A DNA stretch of 64,000 nucleotides, taken from Aggregicoccus sp. 17bor-14. Its GTDB lineage: Bacteria > Myxococcota > Myxococcia > Myxococcales > Myxococcaceae. The notes under the pieces were generated by a model. It searched no databases, was not told where the DNA came from, and worked only from the letters and a program-made list of their open reading frames with translations. Of this stretch, positions 11,198-38,507 are shown piece by piece. The stretch covers positions 124,001 through 188,000 of the forward strand of contig NZ_VJZZ01000002.1 in the NCBI RefSeq assembly GCF_009659535.1. Reading direction: 5' to 3'. How positions within the stretch are numbered: position 1 is the stretch's first letter; each line of letters starts with the position of its first letter. A program made the translations under genes and the position numbers.

Positions 11198-11222
11198 CGC
11201 TGGGAGAGGGCCGGGGTGAGGG
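11198..11222. repeat. Right part of the IS-interrupted dispersed palindrome
   Basis: Begins with the 9-bp target duplication CGCTGGGAG and continues AGAGGGCCGGGGTGAGGG. Joined to 9674-9681 it recreates a full copy of the palindromic repeat family found at 25420, 29421 and 30335. Confidence 0.85.
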
Positions 11223-25419: not shown

Positions 25420-25452
25420 CCCTCACCCCGACCCTCTCCCAGAGGGAGAGGG
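25420..25452. repeat. Dispersed palindromic repeat, copy 2
   Basis: A 33-bp imperfect palindrome reading CCCTCACCCCG, ACCCTCTCCC, AGAGGGAGAGGG. It belongs to the same family as the repeats at 9674/11198, 29421 and 30335. It lies between two minus-strand genes, so it could act as a transcript-end or REP-like hairpin; this is not shown. Confidence 0.85.
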
Positions 25453-28850: not shown

Positions 28851-29414
28851 ATGAGAAGGCTGATTCTGGGGATGTTCGTCTCGCTCGATGGCTTCGTCGG
28901 TGGCCCGAACGGGGAGAACGATTGGGTCTTCCGCTCCGGGGACGACGCGACGGACGCGTGGGTCATCGAGAACCTGGGCCAGGCGGGGGTGATCGCCATG
29001 GGCAGTGGCGCCTTCCGCGAGATGGCGGACTACTGGCCGACCGCGGACTCGCCCTTCGCGGCGCCGATGAACGCGCTCCCCAAGGTGGTCTTCACGCGGA
29101 AGGGGCTCACCGACCGGCAGGGCGGACAGGGCTCCTGGGCCAGCCCCCTCATCGCGAAGGGTGAGCTCTCCGAAGAGGTGGCGCGCCTCAAGGCGCAGCC
29201 CGGCAAGGACATCCGGGTGCTGGGCGGCGCGGGCCTGGCCCGGTCGCTCGCGGCGGGCGGGCTCGTCGACGAGTACCAGCTGATGGTCTGCCCGGTCGCG
29301 CTCGGCAAGGGGCTCCCCCTGTTCTCCGAGCTGTCCAAGCCCGTCGACCTGAAGCTCGCGAGCACGAAGGTCTTCGGCAGTGGCGCGATCGTGCTGACCT
29401 ATCGCAAGGCCTGA
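28851..29414 (+). CDS. Dihydrofolate reductase-family protein (RibD C-terminal domain)
   Basis: A 187-residue cytoplasmic protein of the RibD-C/DHFR-like family. It has MFVSLDGFVGGPNGENDW at the N-terminus, an MGSGAFREM segment in the middle and a VLGGAGLARSLAAGGLVDEY nucleotide-binding block. Family members are NADPH-dependent reductases; the substrate here is not known. The start is preceded by GGGGGAG. A dispersed palindrome follows the stop by six bases. Confidence 0.88.
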   Translation: MRRLILGMFVSLDGFVGGPNGENDWVFRSGDDATDAWVIENLGQAGVIAMGSGAFREMADYWPTADSPFAAPMNALPKVVFTRKGLTDRQGGQGSWASPLIAKGELSEEVARLKAQPGKDIRVLGGAGLARSLAAGGLVDEYQLMVCPVALGKGLPLFSELSKPVDLKLASTKVFGSGAIVLTYRKA

Positions 29415-29420
29415 GCCCGT

Positions 29421-29454
29421 CCCCTCTCCCTCTGGGGAAGGGTCAGGGTGAGGG
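29421..29454. repeat. Dispersed palindromic repeat, copy 3
   Basis: Runs CCCCTCTCCC, TCTGGGGAAG, GGTCAGGGTGAGGG on the plus strand, the inverse orientation of the copy at 25420. On the minus strand it contributes the codons for the last residues (NPSP) and the TGA stop of the CPBP protease gene that ends at 29443. Confidence 0.85.
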
Positions 29455-30309
29455 ATTGTCAGCCGGAGACGCCCCGCGCCAGCGGAGCACGAGCGCCAGC
29501 AGCGCCGCGACGCACAGGAGGCCCGGAAGGCTCGCCTCGAGGCCGAAGGCGCCGCCGGTGAGCCAGTCAGGCCCCTTCAGCTCGGGCTGCAGCAGCCCTG
29601 CGCCACCGAAGCCGCTCACGCCGAAGCCGAGCACGCTGCCCTGCACCCAGTTCGCCGCGAGGTGCAGGCCGAGCGGCATCGCGAGCGCCCGCGTGCGCAG
29701 GAACGCCGCGCCGAAGAGCAGTGACGCGAGGAAGATGTTCACGCTCGCCCACACGCGCGTGAGGCCCGACATGCCCGGGTTGTTCCAGTGCGTGGCCACG
29801 AAGAGCACCGCGACGAGCAGCTGCGCGGGCCAGCGACCCAGCCCGTGCACGAGGCGCTGGAAGAGGAAGCCGCGGAAGAACACCTCTTCACCGAGCGCCA
29901 CCGCCGCGCAGAGGCCGAGCCCGGGCAGCAGCAGCGCCGCGCCCCCTGCGGGCAGCTGCCAGTGCACCGCGCGCACTGCCGTGAGCAGCAGCGCCGGCGC
30001 GAGCATCAGCGCGGCGCCGAGCGCGAGCCCCACGCAGAGCTCACGCAGCCAGCGCCCATCGAGCCGCAGGCCGAGCTCTGCGAGCGGCCTGCGCCGCAGC
30101 GCCTGACACGCCCACCCTGCCAGGATGAAGAAGCTCGCCGTGAGGGCGTGCCGCTGCGACTCAGTGAGCTCGACACCGCGCGCGTGCAGCACGAAGAGCA
30201 CCGGCAGGCCGAAGGCGCCGGCGCAGAACAGGTAGAGGGGGAACCACCAGCCCGTGCGCAGGCGGCGCTCGGAGTCGAGGAAGAGAGAGCGCAGGGTGGG
30301 CTTCGTCAT
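29443..30309 (-). CDS. CPBP-family intramembrane metalloprotease
   Basis: A 288-residue polytopic protein with about eight hydrophobic segments. All three CPBP motifs are strong: GEEVFFRGFLFQR, ATHWNNPG and GLHLAANW. It is therefore a better-preserved member than the one at 6790. The family includes prenyl-endopeptidases and bacteriocin-immunity proteins; the partner is unknown. The last codons and stop lie inside a dispersed palindromic repeat, so the C-terminus NPSP may have been created when the repeat inserted. Confidence 0.9.
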   Translation of the reverse strand: MTKPTLRSLFLDSERRLRTGWWFPLYLFCAGAFGLPVLFVLHARGVELTESQRHALTASFFILAGWACQALRRRPLAELGLRLDGRWLRELCVGLALGAALMLAPALLLTAVRAVHWQLPAGGAALLLPGLGLCAAVALGEEVFFRGFLFQRLVHGLGRWPAQLLVAVLFVATHWNNPGMSGLTRVWASVNIFLASLLFGAAFLRTRALAMPLGLHLAANWVQGSVLGFGVSGFGGAGLLQPELKGPDWLTGGAFGLEASLPGLLCVAALLALVLRWRGASPADNPSP

Positions 30310-30334
30310 GGGGCGCGAACACGCTCATATCAAT

Positions 30335-30367
30335 CCCTCACCCCGACCCTCTCCCAAAGGGAGAGGG
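30335..30367. repeat. Dispersed palindromic repeat, copy 4
   Basis: A 33-bp copy reading CCCTCACCCCG, ACCCTCTCCC, AAAGGGAGAGGG, in the same orientation as the copy at 25420. It lies between two minus-strand genes, 38 bp beyond the collagen-like gene's stop. Confidence 0.85.
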
Positions 30368-30405
30368 GACCGCTTCGCCCTCGTGTCCAGCAGGAAGGGC
30401 TTCGC

Positions 30406-31308
30406 TCAGCGCAGCACGATCTCCAGCGCGGCGTTGTCCACCCGGCAGGTGCCCTCGGTGGAGTCGGCGGAGCGGGCCACCTGCAGCTGCGGCGTGTACT
30501 GGCCGCCGAACAGGCCCTCTCCCCGCATCGTGGAGAAGTAGAAGGGCTCCGCGTACTGGCCGTTCGCCGGCGCCGTCAGCGTCACCTGCTCCATGAGGTA
30601 CGGGGCGGCGTCGCCCAGCCACAGGCCGCAGGTCACCGGGCCGCCTCCCGGACGCGACACCCGCAGCTGCGCCGTGAGCAGCATGCGCGCCCGGTGCCCC
30701 TCCGCCGCCATGAAGGTGAAGCTCACGCCCGGCACCTCCACGAAGTACGCGGAGGTGCTGTACGCCGGGCTCGAGTACTGCTGCGCGAAGAAGGCCGGAT
30801 CGTGCGCCCCCGCAGGTCCCATCGGTCCCGCAGGCCCCTGGGGACCTGCCGGCCCCATCGGACCGGCGGGCCCCGTCGCACCGGTCGCTCCCGTCGCACC
30901 GGTTGCGCCCGTCGCTCCCGTCGCGCCGGTTGCACCCGTCGCACCGGTCGCCCCCGTCGCGCCCTTGGGGCCCGTCGCCCCCGCAGGCCCCATCGGTCCG
31001 GTGAGCCCCATCGGACCTGCCGGCCCCATCGGACCGGCGGGCCCCGTTGCCCCCGTGGCGCCCTGGGGGCCGGCCGCACCCGGCGCCCCCTGCGGCCCGG
31101 CGGGACCCTGCTCACCCGCGGGCCCCTGGGAACCCACTGCTCCTGCGGGACCCTGCGGACCCTGCGCTCCCGCCGGACCTTGAGGCCCGGCCAGCCCGGG
31201 CTCCCCCTGAGACTGCTCGGGATTCGTGGTCTGCGTGCCGTCGGCGCAGGCGCTCAGGGTGAGCAGCAGGAGCAGCGTGGGCATCGCGGTTCGGAGCGTG
31301 TGGCGCAT
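30406..31308 (-). CDS. Collagen-like lipoprotein
   Basis: A 300-residue exported protein. The signal peptide ends in the lipobox LTLSAC at residue 21, after which about 43 Gly-X-Y triplets run from residue 35 to 165, including nine GAT triplets in a row (codons within 30883-30963). A 135-residue non-collagen C-terminal domain follows ([17 protein letters not shown] and onward), probably the trimer-nucleating or adhesive head. The ATG at 31308 has a GGGGGA ribosome site. It is transcribed divergently from the ECF sigma gene, and its upstream region carries the same promoter motif on the minus strand. Confidence 0.92.
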
Positions 31309-31361
31309 CGTGGGTCCCCCTTCGGAGTGGTGCGCGGCGGGTGCCGCGCGTTCGTCAAGGG

Positions 31362-31390
31362 GACCGGGGAGGGCCCATTTCCTGGGAACC
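31362..31390 (-). promoter_or_regulatory. ECF-type promoter for the collagen-like gene
   Basis: On the minus strand GGTTCCCA (31390-31383), 16 bases, then CGGTC (31366-31362). The same two blocks with exactly 16 bases between occur upstream of three plus-strand genes nearby. The distal block would be the -35 and the proximal one the -10 element. The start codon is 54 bp beyond the proximal block. Confidence 0.8.
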
Positions 31391-31475
31391 CCCTTCCTTT
31401 TCCAGCTCACGAGAAGGGGGGGTGGCTCGTCCCCGCCCCGGCTTCTCCCTATGATCGCGGTCCCGAAAAAATCGA

Positions 31476-31504
31476 GGTTCCCAATTCTTCCCCGCCGCCC
31501 GGTC
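31476..31504 (+). promoter_or_regulatory. ECF-type promoter for the sigma factor operon
   Basis: GGTTCCCA (31476-31483), 16 bases, CGGTC (31500-31504). Located 50 bp before the sigma start codon, it implies that the sigma factor drives its own operon. Confidence 0.8.
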
Positions 31505-31553
31505 TATCGATCGATGACGCCGCGCGACCCACTGCCTGCCTCCGGACGCCGCC

Positions 31554-32075
31554 ATGGATGACGCGCGCCTCAGTGCGCTCTACACGCAGTACGGCTACCT
31601 CGTGCACCGACGCTGCCTCGCGCTGGTGCAGCGCCCCGAGGACGCCGAGGACGCGCTGCAGGAGACCTTCCTGCGCGTGAAGCGCTACGGCGAGCCGCGC
31701 GAGACGGGCGCGAGCCTCGCGTGGCTGTACACCATCGCGCAGCGCTGCTGCTTCGACCTGATGCAGAAGCGCGGCCGCGAGCCCGTGGCGAGCGAGGCGC
31801 AGCTGCAGGCGCACGAGGCGCGCGGCGAGGGCTCGGGCGAGGACGCGGACCGCCGCGCCCTGCTCGGCGGCGCGCTGCGCCAGCTCGACGACAAGACCCG
31901 CACCATCGGCGTGCTGCACTTCCTGGACGGCTACACCCAGGAGGAGGTGGCCGAGCAGACCGGCTACTCGCGCAAGACCGTGGGCAAGAAGCTGCAGCTC
32001 TTCGAGGCGCAGGTCCGCCAGCTCTGGCAGTCCGCGCGCCGCCCCCAGCAGGAAGCGCACAAGGAGATGCGATGA
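31554..32075 (+). CDS. ECF-type RNA polymerase sigma factor
   Basis: A 173-residue sigma-70 family protein with region 2 (ALVQRPEDAEDALQETFLRVKRY and LAWLYTIAQRCCFDLMQKR) and region 4 (FLDGYTQEEVAEQTGYSRKTVGKKLQLFE). It lacks regions 1 and 3, as ECF sigmas do. Its stop overlaps the start of a zinc-finger, membrane-spanning gene, the usual position for an anti-sigma factor. The promoter motif GGTTCCCA-N16-CGGTC precedes it, so autoregulation is likely. I cannot assign it to a numbered ECF group. Confidence 0.92.
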   Translation: MDDARLSALYTQYGYLVHRRCLALVQRPEDAEDALQETFLRVKRYGEPRETGASLAWLYTIAQRCCFDLMQKRGREPVASEAQLQAHEARGEGSGEDADRRALLGGALRQLDDKTRTIGVLHFLDGYTQEEVAEQTGYSRKTVGKKLQLFEAQVRQLWQSARRPQQEAHKEMR

Positions 32076-32836
32076 AGCCCCTGCCTCCCAGTCCCCGCGG
32101 GCCCCAGTGCCCCCCGGCCGCCGTCCTCGAGGCGCTGAGCGCCGGCGAGCGCGTGCCCGAGCCCACCCGTGCCCACGTGCAGGCCTGCCCCGACTGCTCC
32201 GCGCAGCTGCAGGCCCTGCAGAGCGCGCAAGCCGCCTTCCTCCAGGCCCGTCCCCCCGAGCGCTTCCTGCGCCAGGTGGAGCGGCGCGAGGAGGCCCCCA
32301 AGCCCTCGCGCCTGCCGAGGCTGCTTCCACTGATCGGCGGCCTGCTGGTTCCGCTGGTGGCCATCGTCCTCTTCGCGCCGCGCGGCGGGCAGCACCCGCA
32401 CGAGGACCCGGGCGTGACCCTGAAGGGCGGAGGCCTGCGGGTCGCCGTGGCGCGCGGGGGCAGCGGCGCGCCGGAGCTGCTGGAGAACGACGGCGCGGTG
32501 CGCGCAGGTGATGCGCTGCGCTTCTCCTACGAGGCGCCGGGCCCCGGCCACCTGCTCGTGCTGGAGCTGGACGGGCGCGGGGAGGCGAGCGTGTTCCATC
32601 CCTTCAACGGAGCGACGTCGACGCCCCTCGCCGCGGGCCAGCGCGACTTCCTCCCGGGCAGCGTGGTGCTGGATGCGGCGCCCGGTCCCGAGCTGCTCGT
32701 CGCCGTGTTCTCGCCCCGCCCGCTCGAGGCCGCGCCCCTGCTCGAGCAGCTGCGCGCGCAGGCCGGACGTCCCGAGCCCACCCTCACCTGTGATGGCTGC
32801 CGCGTGAGCACGCTGCGGCTGCAGAAGCGTCCATGA
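32072..32836 (+). CDS. Probable zinc-finger anti-sigma factor with DUF4384-like domain
   Basis: A 254-residue protein whose ATG overlaps the sigma stop (ATGA, with AAGGAG just upstream). The N-terminus has HxxxCxxC (His35, Cys39, Cys42 in RAHVQACPDC), the ZAS-type anti-sigma motif. One membrane helix (about residues 88-108) follows, then an extracytoplasmic domain whose GDALRFSYEAPGPGHLLVLEL stretch resembles DUF4384. That domain would sense the signal. It is followed by an overlapping caspase-like gene. Confidence 0.82.
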   Translation: MKPLPPSPRGPQCPPAAVLEALSAGERVPEPTRAHVQACPDCSAQLQALQSAQAAFLQARPPERFLRQVERREEAPKPSRLPRLLPLIGGLLVPLVAIVLFAPRGGQHPHEDPGVTLKGGGLRVAVARGGSGAPELLENDGAVRAGDALRFSYEAPGPGHLLVLELDGRGEASVFHPFNGATSTPLAAGQRDFLPGSVVLDAAPGPELLVAVFSPRPLEAAPLLEQLRAQAGRPEPTLTCDGCRVSTLRLQKRP

Positions 32837-34377
32837 CCCGCCTCCTCGCCGTCCTTCTGCTGCTCCTCCCGCTCGCCGCGCGCGCCGAGACGGTGCGCCT
32901 GCTCGTGGCCATCGGCGCGAACGTGGGCGACCCCGACGACGCGGTGCTGCGCTTCGCGGACGACGACGCGCAGCGCGTGCGCCAGGTCTTCGTGGAGCTG
33001 GGCGGGGTGCGCGCGGACCGCGCGCTGCTCGTGCTCAACCCGCCGGCGGATGCGGTGCGCCAGCGCCTGAGCGAGGTCGCGGGCCGCATCGCCGAGCTCA
33101 AGGCCGCGGGGCACGACCCGGTGCTCACCGTGTACGCGTCCTCGCACGCGGCCGGAGGCGTGCTGCACCTGGGCGGCACGCACCTGCCGCTCGCCGAGCT
33201 GCGCGACCTCGCGCGCGGCGCCGGCGCGCGGCTCACGGTGGTCATCGTGGATGCGTGCGAGAGCGGCACCCTGGCCAAGCCCAAGGGCGGCAGCGCCGCG
33301 CCCGCCTTCGACGTCTCGCTCGAGCGCCTGCCCCTGCACGGCCAGGTGGTCATCTCCTCGAGCGGTCCGGGCGAGAGCAGCGAGGAGTGGGACTCGCTGC
33401 AGGGCTCGCTGTTCACGCACCACCTGCTCACGGGCCTGCGCGGGGACGCGGACGCAGAAGGGGACGGCAAGGTCTCGCTCGCCGAGGCCTACGCCTACGC
33501 GTACCGGCGCACGGTGGCGGGCGCCGCGGGCGCAGGGCAGCACCCGGCCTACGCCTACGATCTCGCGGGCACCGGAGACCTCGTCCTCACCGAGCCCGCC
33601 GGAGCGCGCAGCGCGCTCGTGTTCCCCGCGGAGCTCGCGGGGCGCTACGTGGTGGCGAGCCAGCCGCGCCCGGACGTGGTGGCGGAGGTCGAGAAGCAGC
33701 CGGGCCGCGCCCTGCGGCTCGCCGTACCGCCGGGCCGCTACCTGCTGCGCAAGCGCGCGGGCGCGAGCACCGGCCTCGCGCAGCTGGAGCTGCCCTACGG
33801 CGGCGAGCGCGCGGTGCGCGAGGAGGACCTGGTGTGGCGCCGCTTCACCGAGGTGGCGATGAAGGGCGGCTACCTGGAGCTGCGCAACTCGGCCCTGCTC
33901 GTGCTCGGGCAGGTGGGCACGGGACCGGTGCAGGACACCGGCGCGCGCCTCGGCGCGGCGCTCGGCTACCGGCACACCTGGGGCCCCTGGTGGGGGATGG
34001 GAACCTTCAGCGCAGGGGGCAAGGGCTACCGCGGCGTGGGGCTCGGCGTGCAGGAGCGCGCGCTGGGGCTCGGCGCCTCCGCGGGCTACCGCTGGCTGCG
34101 CTGGACGCTGGTGCCACAGCTGGGCGTGGGCGTGGAGCTGCTCGCGCTCCAGCAGCGCTTCACGCGCGACCGCGAGGAGGCGGCCGCGGCGCCCCTGCCC
34201 TCGCGCCGTGCGCTGGGGCTCGGCGTGGGTCCGGTGGCGGGGCTCGAGGTACCGCTCCCTGCGCAGGCCTTCCTGCTCGCGCAGGCGCAGCTGCTGGTGC
34301 GCCAGCTTCCGGCCGAGTCCGGCCCCTCGCTGCGCCCGGCCGCCTCGGCGCAGCTGGGCGCGGGCTGGCGCTTCTAG
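32833..34377 (+). CDS. Caspase-like (C14) domain fused to an outer-membrane beta-barrel
   Basis: A 514-residue exported protein whose ATG overlaps the anti-sigma stop by four bases. Signal peptide ends near LAARAET. The caspase-like domain spans about residues 20-250: His105 (YASSHAAGG) and Cys142 in VDACESG are in the expected order, though the His motif departs from the usual GHG. From about residue 330 to the end, alternating strands and a C-terminal aromatic strand (AGWRF) suggest an outer-membrane barrel. A protease or protease-like adaptor at the outer membrane is inferred. It completes the sigma/anti-sigma operon. Confidence 0.85.
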   Translation: MTRLLAVLLLLLPLAARAETVRLLVAIGANVGDPDDAVLRFADDDAQRVRQVFVELGGVRADRALLVLNPPADAVRQRLSEVAGRIAELKAAGHDPVLTVYASSHAAGGVLHLGGTHLPLAELRDLARGAGARLTVVIVDACESGTLAKPKGGSAAPAFDVSLERLPLHGQVVISSSGPGESSEEWDSLQGSLFTHHLLTGLRGDADAEGDGKVSLAEAYAYAYRRTVAGAAGAGQHPAYAYDLAGTGDLVLTEPAGARSALVFPAELAGRYVVASQPRPDVVAEVEKQPGRALRLAVPPGRYLLRKRAGASTGLAQLELPYGGERAVREEDLVWRRFTEVAMKGGYLELRNSALLVLGQVGTGPVQDTGARLGAALGYRHTWGPWWGMGTFSAGGKGYRGVGLGVQERALGLGASAGYRWLRWTLVPQLGVGVELLALQQRFTRDREEAAAAPLPSRRALGLGVGPVAGLEVPLPAQAFLLAQAQLLVRQLPAESGPSLRPAASAQLGAGWRF

Positions 34378-34405
34378 GTTCCCACGAAAAGGCCCCACAC
34401 CGGTC
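34377..34405 (+). promoter_or_regulatory. ECF-type promoter for the lipoprotein gene
   Basis: GGTTCCCA (34377-34384), 16 bases, CGGTC (34401-34405). The first base is the last base of the upstream stop codon. The start codon lies 56 bp after the proximal block. Confidence 0.8.
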
Positions 34406-34416
34406 CCACTCAGCGA

Positions 34417-34433
34417 GCGCCCCTGACGGGCGC
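34417..34433 (+). promoter_or_regulatory. Leader hairpin
   Basis: GCGCCC, loop CTGAC, GGGCGC, about 12 bp past the promoter and so near the mRNA 5' end. The paralogous gene at 35837 has a stronger hairpin at the same position, so it may affect mRNA stability or translation. Confidence 0.6.
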
Positions 34434-34460
34434 ACCGAGCACCCCGGAGGGGGAAAAGTC

Positions 34461-35747
34461 ATGACGAAGCACCTGCACCTGTTCTCGCTGTTCCTGCTGT
34501 CCTTGCTCTTCGCGCTCGCGGGCTGTGGCGACCCGGTGGTGGACCCCGGCTACCGCGGCGAGTCGCTGCTCACCGTCACGGGGGAGATGCGCACCGCGCC
34601 GGGCTACCACGCGCAGGGCCCGCTGCACGTGGCGATGGTGTGGTTCCCCACGTCGGTCATCGAGAGCGGGGATGGCGCCGAGGTCCCGGACGCCTTCGCG
34701 ATGGTGGCCGAGGACGCGGCCATCGAGGGCAGCTTCCCGCTCACCTACCGGCTGGACGTGTTCCAGCCGCCGCCCCCCGAGGCGATGGGCGCGTGGGGAC
34801 AGGGCCTGCCGGGCCGGGGCGCCATCGGGCTGGTCATCGCGTACGAGGACCTCAACGGCAACGGCAAGCTGGACCGCATCCCGCGCAACGGCGCGCCGCA
34901 GGACCGCATCGTGGGCGCCTCCACGTACGAGCCCGGCCGCCCGTACATGGTCCTCTACACGGACACGGCGCAGCAGGGCGTGCCCGCGGGCTTCAGCATC
35001 GGCGCTGCGGACGAGAGCGGCGAGCCCGCGGTGCTGCCGGCGTCCACGAAGCTCTCCCTCACCCTCACCCCGGGCGGGGACCTGTACGACGCGCTGGTGT
35101 GCGAGGCGGGCTGGGTCACGTACCTGTTCATCCCCGTGTGCGGCCTCGGTGGGAACGGTGAGGAGCAGCCGCCTCTCTCGGACCTCAACGTGTCGGGCGA
35201 CGTGAAGCTGAACGGCGGCCACCTCGACGTGGACCTGCGGGCCTCCATCGACAACGGCACGGGCTTCGAGGAGCTGCACGACGCGACCCTGAAGCTGGGC
35301 GGCCGGGAGCTCCCCTTCGACGCCACGAGCGGCCACTACGTGCTGAGCGAGGACGCGAGCACGCTGCTCACCCTGGGGCAGAAGATTCGCCTCGAGGTGA
35401 GCGCGCGCGGCCAGAGCACCTTCCGCGACCTGCAGGTGCCCGGCGCCTTCGACATCACGGCGCCCGGCGAGGGCGCGCACGCCTCCAGCACCCAGCCGCT
35501 GGCGGTGCAGTGGACGCAGGCGGCGGGCGCGACGGGCTACTCCGTGGAGCTCGAGACGCCCAACGTCTTCAACAGCGGCCCCGCGGACGAGGGCGCGCTG
35601 TCGAAGACCTACGACGGGCTGCTCGGCGAGGGTGATGCCCGCGTTCGCGTCGCCGCCAGGGGAGGCGTGGTGTCGGGGGCGGTCTTCGAGTCCTTCCTGA
35701 TCGACGTGAGCGTGGTGAAGGAGCAGTCCTTCGTGCTGGACCCGTGA
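34461..35747 (+). CDS. Exported lipoprotein with EF-hand-like loop and Ig-like C-terminal domain
   Basis: A 428-residue protein with a GGAGGGGGA ribosome site and a signal peptide ending in LFALAGC, a lipobox. The N-terminal half includes DLNGNGKLDRI, an EF-hand-like calcium loop. The C-terminal 195 residues (from LNVSGDVKLNGG) form a beta-sandwich with paralogous similarity to the whole of the next protein, sharing the blocks SEDASTLL, VPGAFDITAP and IDVSVVKEQSFVLDP. A regulated surface protein is likely. It is preceded by an ECF promoter motif and leader hairpin. Confidence 0.82.
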   Translation: MTKHLHLFSLFLLSLLFALAGCGDPVVDPGYRGESLLTVTGEMRTAPGYHAQGPLHVAMVWFPTSVIESGDGAEVPDAFAMVAEDAAIEGSFPLTYRLDVFQPPPPEAMGAWGQGLPGRGAIGLVIAYEDLNGNGKLDRIPRNGAPQDRIVGASTYEPGRPYMVLYTDTAQQGVPAGFSIGAADESGEPAVLPASTKLSLTLTPGGDLYDALVCEAGWVTYLFIPVCGLGGNGEEQPPLSDLNVSGDVKLNGGHLDVDLRASIDNGTGFEELHDATLKLGGRELPFDATSGHYVLSEDASTLLTLGQKIRLEVSARGQSTFRDLQVPGAFDITAPGEGAHASSTQPLAVQWTQAAGATGYSVELETPNVFNSGPADEGALSKTYDGLLGEGDARVRVAARGGVVSGAVFESFLIDVSVVKEQSFVLDP

Positions 35748-35756
35748 CAGCGCCCG

Positions 35757-35785
35757 GGTTCCCACGAAAGGGCACCCGGGCGGTC
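35757..35785 (+). promoter_or_regulatory. ECF-type promoter for the small paralogue
   Basis: GGTTCCCA (35757-35764), 16 bases, CGGTC (35781-35785). The stretch after GGTTCCCA begins CGAAA, as at 34385, so promoter and leader were duplicated together with the gene. Confidence 0.8.
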
Positions 35786-35794
35786 TTCCTGAGC

Positions 35795-35815
35795 GAGCGC
35801 CCACGGTGGGCGCTC
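35795..35815 (+). promoter_or_regulatory. Leader hairpin, 9-bp stem
   Basis: GAGCGCCCA, loop CGG, TGGGCGCTC, a perfect nine-base-pair stem about 10 bp past the promoter. The same arrangement at 34417 has a six-pair stem. Confidence 0.65.
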
Positions 35816-35836
35816 CGAGCTCCAGAAGGAAGACCC

Positions 35837-36454
35837 ATGCCGAACCCCTTGCTGGCCCGTGAGCCCCTCCGTCCCCGGGCCTCGCTGCTCCCGCCCTGGC
35901 CCGAGCTGTGTGTGCGAGGCCACGTGACGCTGAAGGCCGGGCGCCTCACGGTCGAGCTGAGTGCCTCGCTCGGCGACGGGGCGCCTCCCGGCGAGCTGGA
36001 GCTCTCGCTCGACCGCCGCATCATCCCCTTCGAGCCCGCGAGTGCGCGCTACACGCTGTGCGAAGACGCGAGCACGCTGCTCGTGCCCGGCGGTACGGTT
36101 CGCCTCGCGGTGCGTGCCCGCAGCCGGTGCACCTTTTGTGAGCTGCGGGTCCCCGGCGCCTTCGACATCACCGCACCGGCGGAGGGCACGCGCCTGTCGA
36201 GCATCGAGCCGCTGCGCTTGCGGTGGTCGCCGTCGGAGAGCGCCGAGCGGTACGCCATCGAGCTCGAGACGGCCGGCAGCCGCTACGGCGCGCCGGCGCC
36301 AGACGGTGCGTGCTCGCAGACCTTCCAGTTCTTCAGCGCGCAGGGGCCCACCGTCGTGCGGGTCACCGCGAGCACCGGGCTCCTCCGCGGCGCCGATTCC
36401 ATCGCGGTCGACGTGAGCGTGGTGAAGGAGCGGTCCTTCGTGCTCGAGCCCTGA
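35837..36454 (+). CDS. Truncated paralogue of the 34461 lipoprotein, no signal peptide
   Basis: A 205-residue protein with GAAGGA upstream. It matches only the C-terminal beta-sandwich of the lipoprotein at 34461: CEDASTLLVPGG, VPGAFDITAPAEG and VDVSVVKERSFVLEP are plainly shared. It lacks the lipobox and the N-terminal calcium-loop domain, so it would stay in the cytoplasm unless exported by another route. It probably arose by a duplication that included the promoter and leader hairpin. Extra cysteines (RSRCTFCELRV) appear that are absent from the parent. Confidence 0.78.
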   Translation: MPNPLLAREPLRPRASLLPPWPELCVRGHVTLKAGRLTVELSASLGDGAPPGELELSLDRRIIPFEPASARYTLCEDASTLLVPGGTVRLAVRARSRCTFCELRVPGAFDITAPAEGTRLSSIEPLRLRWSPSESAERYAIELETAGSRYGAPAPDGACSQTFQFFSAQGPTVVRVTASTGLLRGADSIAVDVSVVKERSFVLEP

Positions 36455-36670
36455 GGCGCGCGCGCATCACGCAAGGCTCGGAAGGAAGACGGGCGGGACG
36501 GCGGTGCCTCGCCTGCGCCGAGCGCGTGAGGGCGTCGGCCTGCGAGGCGCTCCGGGGTGACGCAGGCGAGGCCCCCCTCCGGGCGCGAAGGCGCGCGCTC
36601 CTGTTCTGAGATGTCGGGGGTTTTCCGGAACAATTTTCAGCCCTTGGCGTGCCCTCGGAAGCAGCGGGGT

Positions 36671-36694
36671 CCTGGAATGAAGCTTCATTCCAGG
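36671..36694. repeat. Perfect 24-bp palindrome
   Basis: CCTGGAATGAAG followed directly by its exact complement. It has no loop and a HindIII-like AAGCTT centre, and lies in a gene-free stretch. Confidence 0.85.
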
Positions 36695-36840
36695 CCTCTG
36701 CCGGGGGCTCTGGGGGGCTGGACGGAACGCTTCGTCCACGGCCCGTCGGGCTCGGAGGGGAGGCGCGATGGGCGCCGGGACGGAGTCTTCCGCCCCGGTG
36801 AGCCGACCCCTTCCGGTCGCAGTCCGGTGCGGAGCCAAAG

Positions 36841-36865
36841 CTCGGGACTTCTGAAAACTCCCGAG
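36841..36865. repeat. Inverted repeat, 7-bp stem
   Basis: CTCGGGA, 11-base A-rich loop, TCCCGAG, followed by GTTTGTAG. It could end a transcript from the left but the T run is poor. Confidence 0.5.
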
Positions 36866-37022
36866 GTTTGTAGTTAGCAGCGCACAGCGCCTCGCCCGAC
36901 ACCCCCCGCGCATCCCCCGAGCGAGGCGCAGGGCAACGCCCGCCCGCGCTCGGCGCCGAGGCAACGGGAACGTTCGCTCCGGCTTCCTCCAAGCCAGCAG
37001 TGTGCCGAGCCCACTCCGACGC

Positions 37023-38507
<1,485 letters not shown>

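Follow-up and report, generated by a model that had tools for sequence, protein, structure and literature searches.

A conserved bipartite motif and a probable ECF sigma factor regulon of an outer-membrane caspase and surface lipoproteins in myxobacteria

Pattern searches of the window (the whole stretch of 64,000 nucleotides analysed here) and of its genome, together with comparison of related genomes, define computationally a conserved promoter motif, link it to the local extracytoplasmic function (ECF) sigma factor and resolve the anatomy of the operon headed by the gene for that factor. Judged from sequence, the two blocks of the motif, GGTTCCCA and CGGTC, are very probably the −35 and −10 elements by which the local ECF sigma factor drives its own operon and a small set of lipoproteins. 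For one ECF sigma family of the myxobacteria, bacteria with many sigma factors still uncharacterised, this provides a sharply defined and testable promoter code. It also links genes previously without function, namely those encoding an outer-membrane-barrel caspase, a DUF4384-like anti-sigma factor, and FN3/Ig-like, collagen-like and propeller lipoproteins. No description of the motif or of the operon was found in the literature searched.

A pattern search of the window for GGTTCCCA and CGGTC at a spacing of 16 bases returns four exact sites (Table 1). They lie at the coordinates and on the strands given for them in the preliminary description, and the spacer is exactly 16 bases in all four, as had been claimed there. 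The distance from the proximal block to the start codon, previously put at 50–56 bp, is 49 nt for the sigma gene, 53 nt for the collagen-like gene, 55 nt for LP1 and 51 nt for LP2. The sites are oriented as described, and the claim that they occupy gap regions holds as well, although only just at 34377, where the site starts on the final base of the stop codon of the caspase gene. It had also been proposed that the window contains no further partnered site, and we find no other within one mismatch and only one within two. At three mismatches the window count is no different from chance (23 found, 27 expected), and therefore the weight of the window evidence lies in the exactness and position of the sites.

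Table 1. Coordinates of the sigma operon, its predicted targets, the motif sites and the leader hairpins in the window
Feature	Position	Strand	Evidence or remarks
Collagen-like lipoprotein, lipobox LSAC	30406..31308	−	Pfam Collagen 1.2e-21; lipobox
Leader hairpin of collagen-like gene	31332..31349	−	z −3.5
Predicted promoter of collagen-like lipoprotein	31362..31390	−	Exact match; 11.1 bits, second-best window match of relatives' profile
Predicted sigma operon promoter (autoregulation)	31476..31504	+	Exact match; conserved before sigma orthologues; best window match of relatives' profile
ECF sigma factor, 173 aa	31554..32075	+	Sigma70_r2 and Sigma70_r4_2 above Pfam cut-off; TIGR02937 above cut-off
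Membrane anti-sigma factor: Hx3Cx2C, hydrophobic segment, DUF4384-like periplasmic domain	32072..32836	+	4-base overlap with sigma gene
Caspase with signal-like N-terminus and C-terminal OmpA-like 8-strand barrel	32833..34377	+	4-base overlap with anti-sigma gene
Predicted LP1 promoter	34377..34405	+	Exact match; LP1 homologues in relatives carry motif
LP1 leader hairpin	34417..34433	+	z −0.4, alone not significant
LP1, beta-sandwich-domain lipoprotein, last domain FN3-like	34461..35747	+	Structure prediction; lipobox
Predicted LP2 promoter	35757..35785	+	Exact match; duplicate of LP1 promoter
LP2 leader hairpin	35795..35815	+	z −2.8
LP2, copy of LP1 C-terminal part, no lipobox	35837..36454	+	46% identical to LP1

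Genome-wide, the case for the motif is stronger than it seemed in the window. The genome scan suggested in the preliminary description yields six exact sites in 6,922,639 bases, all of them before start codons, against about 0.12 expected by chance (estimated from one-mismatch counts; Poisson P ~4e-9). Across the same whole genome, neither the reversed pattern nor the two blocks at a 17-base spacing gave a single match. The genes that follow the six sites are the sigma gene, four genes with a lipobox, and LP2. The sites at 34377 and 35757 lie before paralogous genes and have their spacers and leaders in common; these two copies are the result of one duplication, not of two independent events, and the remaining spacers differ. 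A near-match at position 100853 of contig C12 (CGTTCCCA...CGGTC) was left out as unlikely, because an ATG follows it by only about 19 nt and the A/T tract is missing. No sigma-70-like promoter was found in 31200–36700, and no known Rfam RNA in 29000–38000.

The two exact sites beyond the window are on contigs C3 (77976–78004, minus strand) and C16 (12425–12453, minus strand), 33 and 53 nt, respectively, before genes for proteins that both carry a lipobox. The C3 target is a lipoprotein of 247 residues that weakly resembles the VV20781 family, and the C16 target is a lipoprotein of 454 residues with beta-propeller repeats. The predicted regulon has at least two members beyond the window, both of them lipoproteins.

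Comparison of the upstream regions of orthologous sigma genes, another check proposed in the preliminary description, shows the motif and its spacing to be kept in most orthologues of 47–80% identity in other genera. Most sigma orthologues, with identities down to about 47%, have the motif starting 41–106 nt before the gene, and across Myxococcota it is conserved before both sigma orthologues and LP1-type lipoprotein genes. Its carriers include Pyxidicoccus, Archangium, a Myxococcus sp. and Myxococcota metagenome genomes. The gene order of sigma factor, anti-sigma factor, caspase and LP1-type lipoprotein is kept in the neighbourhoods of orthologues, and LP1-type genes in relatives often have a motif copy of their own. 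The LP1-type gene that immediately follows the caspase gene in Pyxidicoccus is without the motif, and only the next LP1-type gene has one.

A sequence-only profile was trained on 19 promoters from relatives, with the genome itself left out. Its top three matches in this genome fall at the promoters of the C3 and C16 lipoproteins (E 5.5e-7 and 2.4e-4) and at the sigma promoter (E 0.089), and with filters off the four window sites occupy ranks 1–4 within the window. The LP1, LP2 and collagen-like sites score weakly against the profile (5.6–11 bits) because their spacers start with CGAAA or GGAAA rather than TTTTC. Among 71 family genomes, the motif was found in 16, all of which encode a sigma orthologue, and in none of the 50 without one (Fisher 6e-12, or 8e-6 without the genomes that supplied training sites; as the genomes are related, these P values are guides and not exact). 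The five sigma-bearing family genomes that were unmatched at E 0.02 all carry AC- or GC-TTCCCA variants. One genome (G118) was picked out solely by the motif, and a sigma orthologue of 77% identity was then found about 65 bases downstream. In relatives, too, some predicted members of the regulon lie apart from the sigma gene. In one genome (G013), a homologue of the C3 lipoprotein carries the motif (E 0.009), and in another (G078) so does a distant LP1 homologue on a contig other than that of the sigma gene. In one genus the gene preceded by the motif instead encodes a lipoprotein about 920 residues long that contains seven or eight Big_2 Ig-like domains. Further exact sites that relatives have outside the sigma locus occur mostly near control frequency.

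The second base of the motif varies with the sigma factor itself. Orthologues with the recognition helix GKKL have G at this base in 15 of 16 cases, and those with GVKL have C in six of seven. Base 2 tracks the recognition helix, as is expected if the local sigma factor contacts that base (Fisher 5e-4, with kinship ignored; the covariation comes mainly from one genus and one other lineage, with two exceptions). Given the conservation before orthologues, the co-occurrence with the sigma gene, the blind recovery by the profile and the helix covariation, there is strong support for assigning the sites to one sigma factor as its ECF promoters.

We consider it very unlikely that the sites are instead operators of a DNA-binding repressor or activator for which the sigma gene is merely one target. 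The motif is bipartite and near gene starts, and the leader hairpins could be read as dyad operators, as would suit such a regulator. However, the block is non-palindromic and its orientation toward the gene is fixed, an A/T tract follows its upstream half, and an ECF-like GTC is present in its downstream half. The covariation of base 2 with the recognition helix and the association of the motif with the sigma gene across 71 genomes also argue against operators, and the conserved core shows no regulator gene besides those of the sigma and anti-sigma factors. Some other ECF sigma factor encoded in the genome might read the sites, with the local factor only a target: the genome encodes 16 sequences similar to the local sigma factor, and ECF sigma factors can cross-talk. 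This is most improbable, given that the motif follows orthologues of the local factor, is absent from the 50 family genomes whose best-match ECF sigma factor is more distant, and is lacking in a paralogous module of the same genome. That module (contig C4, 45514–49381), which comprises a paralogous sigma factor (33% identity), a DUF4384-containing protein, a caspase (41% identity) and a lipoprotein, has no copy of the GGTTCCCA motif and presumably constitutes a regulon of its own. The loci of more distant caspase relatives (L142–L144 and L146–L148) also gave zero matches to the relatives' profile. The chance that the sites are a coincidence, or a short repeat element spread by duplication, is next to negligible: within the window, two of the four sites clearly duplicate one another, but the other spacers differ, the six exact sites far exceed expectation and all precede start codons, the motif is conserved in other genera, and the blind profile test contradicts it.

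With the local sigma factor as the preferred reader of the motif, the anatomy of its operon can be described. The sigma factor is a short protein with regions 2 and 4 and without region 3, as is typical of ECF factors; the bipartite promoter of its own, and hence its autoregulation, are predicted on sequence evidence only. The gene adjoining it encodes an apparent class I zinc-motif anti-sigma factor. All homologues of this protein have the Hx3Cx2C zinc motif in the N-terminal domain and a hydrophobic segment (19-residue hydropathy maximum of 1.7–2.9, starting near residue 74–89), which is a putative transmembrane segment. The match to DUF4384 (PF14326) covers the whole domain (E 6.7e-5) at 23.3 bits, below the gathering cut-off of 27, so we use the label “DUF4384-like”. 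In its predicted periplasmic part, the anti-sigma factor has a C-terminal pair of cysteines, Cys240 and Cys243, that is conserved in homologues and is possibly a redox or metal site.

The third gene of the operon encodes a protein with a caspase domain that scores above the Pfam cut-off and has a predicted fold matching caspases, with the His/Cys dyad, His105 and Cys142, invariant in 22 homologues. The AlphaFold2 model (mean pLDDT 84.5, pTM 0.61) combines a caspase fold with a beta region in the middle and an OmpA-like barrel of eight strands. Given the usual topology of such barrels, the caspase would face the periplasm. No close relative of it was found in the plasmid collection. The proposal that the sigma factor drives this caspase-like barrel stands by way of the sigma operon promoter, although the gene has no motif of its own: since each gene in the series sigma, anti-sigma and caspase overlaps the next by 4 bases, the caspase is expected to be expressed from the promoter of the sigma gene.

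The remaining part of that proposal, in which the sigma factor also drives two related proteins and a collagen-like lipoprotein, is likewise supported, except that the second relative, LP2, is a truncated duplicate that has lost the signal sequence and lacks a lipobox. LP2 is perhaps a decaying copy of part of LP1 that was duplicated with its promoter and leader. In the LP1 model, which comprises several beta-sandwich domains, the relative orientation of the domains is unreliable. For the collagen-like gene, no genome other than this one is known to have the motif. The common theme of the predicted regulon output appears to be surface lipoproteins with adhesin-like domains.

In the mechanism that we propose, the sigma factor would read its own promoter, leading to expression of sigma factor, anti-sigma factor and caspase-barrel, and would also act on separately encoded targets, namely LP1, its truncated copy LP2, the collagen-like lipoprotein and the two distant lipoproteins. 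The anti-sigma factor would keep the sigma factor at the inner membrane. On an envelope signal, which the DUF4384-like domain and the outer-membrane caspase perhaps sense, the anti-sigma factor would be lost, whereupon the freed sigma factor would amplify itself and remodel the cell surface with lipoproteins. For inhibition by the anti-sigma factor and subsequent release, the model draws on what is known of the family. The identity of the signal and cleavage of the anti-sigma factor by the caspase are speculative. From the membership of the caspase in the operon, its expected periplasmic face and the fusions of caspase and DUF4384 in cyanobacteria (PMC8283722), we infer that it may take part in the step releasing the sigma factor. 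It is possible, if doubtful, that the outer-membrane caspase is the periplasmic trigger protease, which would reach over the periplasm to contact or cut the DUF4384-like domain of the inner-membrane anti-sigma factor such that envelope disturbance frees the sigma factor and renews the surface lipoproteins. If the caspase does act on the anti-sigma factor, this would be a caspase at work in bacterial envelope signalling.

The Sigma-E/RseA/DegS envelope stress pathway has a membrane anti-sigma factor with a periplasmic domain, and a periplasmic protease. The present system is similar in its membrane anti-sigma factor with a periplasmic domain and in having a periplasmic protease as a candidate trigger; it differs in that the protease is caspase-like and tethered to the outer membrane, with anti-sigma cleavage being speculative. 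The common −35 type of ECF promoters is GGAAC. In the RpoE-ChrR and SigW-RsiW systems, an ECF (group IV) sigma factor is paired with a class I zinc-motif anti-sigma factor (PMC7406223). The system described here is of this type in having a sigma factor with regions 2 and 4 only, an adjacent Hx3Cx2C anti-sigma factor, a bipartite promoter of about 16-base spacing, predicted autoregulation and a small regulon. Unlike that type, it has GGTTCCCA in place of the common −35 type, an anti-sigma factor with a periplasmic DUF4384-like domain and a conserved cysteine pair, and an outer-membrane caspase as the third operon gene.

In EACC2 systems, caspase genes are known to adjoin ECF sigma genes (PMC8195603). 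The EACC1 and EACC2 caspase conflict systems, some of which include an ECF sigma gene and for which proteolytic triggering has been proposed, are characterised by the EACC domain and by a C-terminus that varies, and they often include a DUF1822 TPR protein (PMC8195603). The linkage of a caspase gene to an ECF sigma gene is shared with these systems, whereas the caspase described here combines a signal-like N-terminus with an OmpA-like barrel. Of the EACC1 model, its caspase part alone was matched, at 48 bits against a cut-off of 140, which gives no support for placing the protein in the EACC1 group. A reading as a defence system was rejected, as PADLOC models gave no match. In cyanobacteria, 23 orthocaspases carry DUF4384 (PMC8283722), and so caspase and DUF4384 occur together there as here, although in one polypeptide; here the domains are on two neighbouring proteins, of the predicted outer and inner membrane. 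Genes for CHAT and other proteases occur in the context of ECF54 sigma factors, for which proteolysis is proposed as control and which are described as being without an anti-sigma factor (PMC8999054). A gene for a caspase-clan peptidase adjoins the ECF sigma gene in both cases, but a clear anti-sigma factor is present here.

The leaders of lipoprotein targets tend toward a hairpin that starts about 10–13 nt after CGGTC (Table 1). Folding gave a mean z of −1.5 in 26 lipoprotein leaders versus −0.15 in 10 sigma leaders, the leaders not being independent of one another. The stem sequences vary between lineages, relatives included, and the hairpins could stabilise the messages. Separately, a repeat, CCCTCACCCCGACCCTCTCCC, of which no copies are expected by chance, is present in the window at 11202–11222, 25420–25440, 29434–29454 and 30335–30355, and two inverted copies of it flank a CPBP protease gene at 29443–30309.
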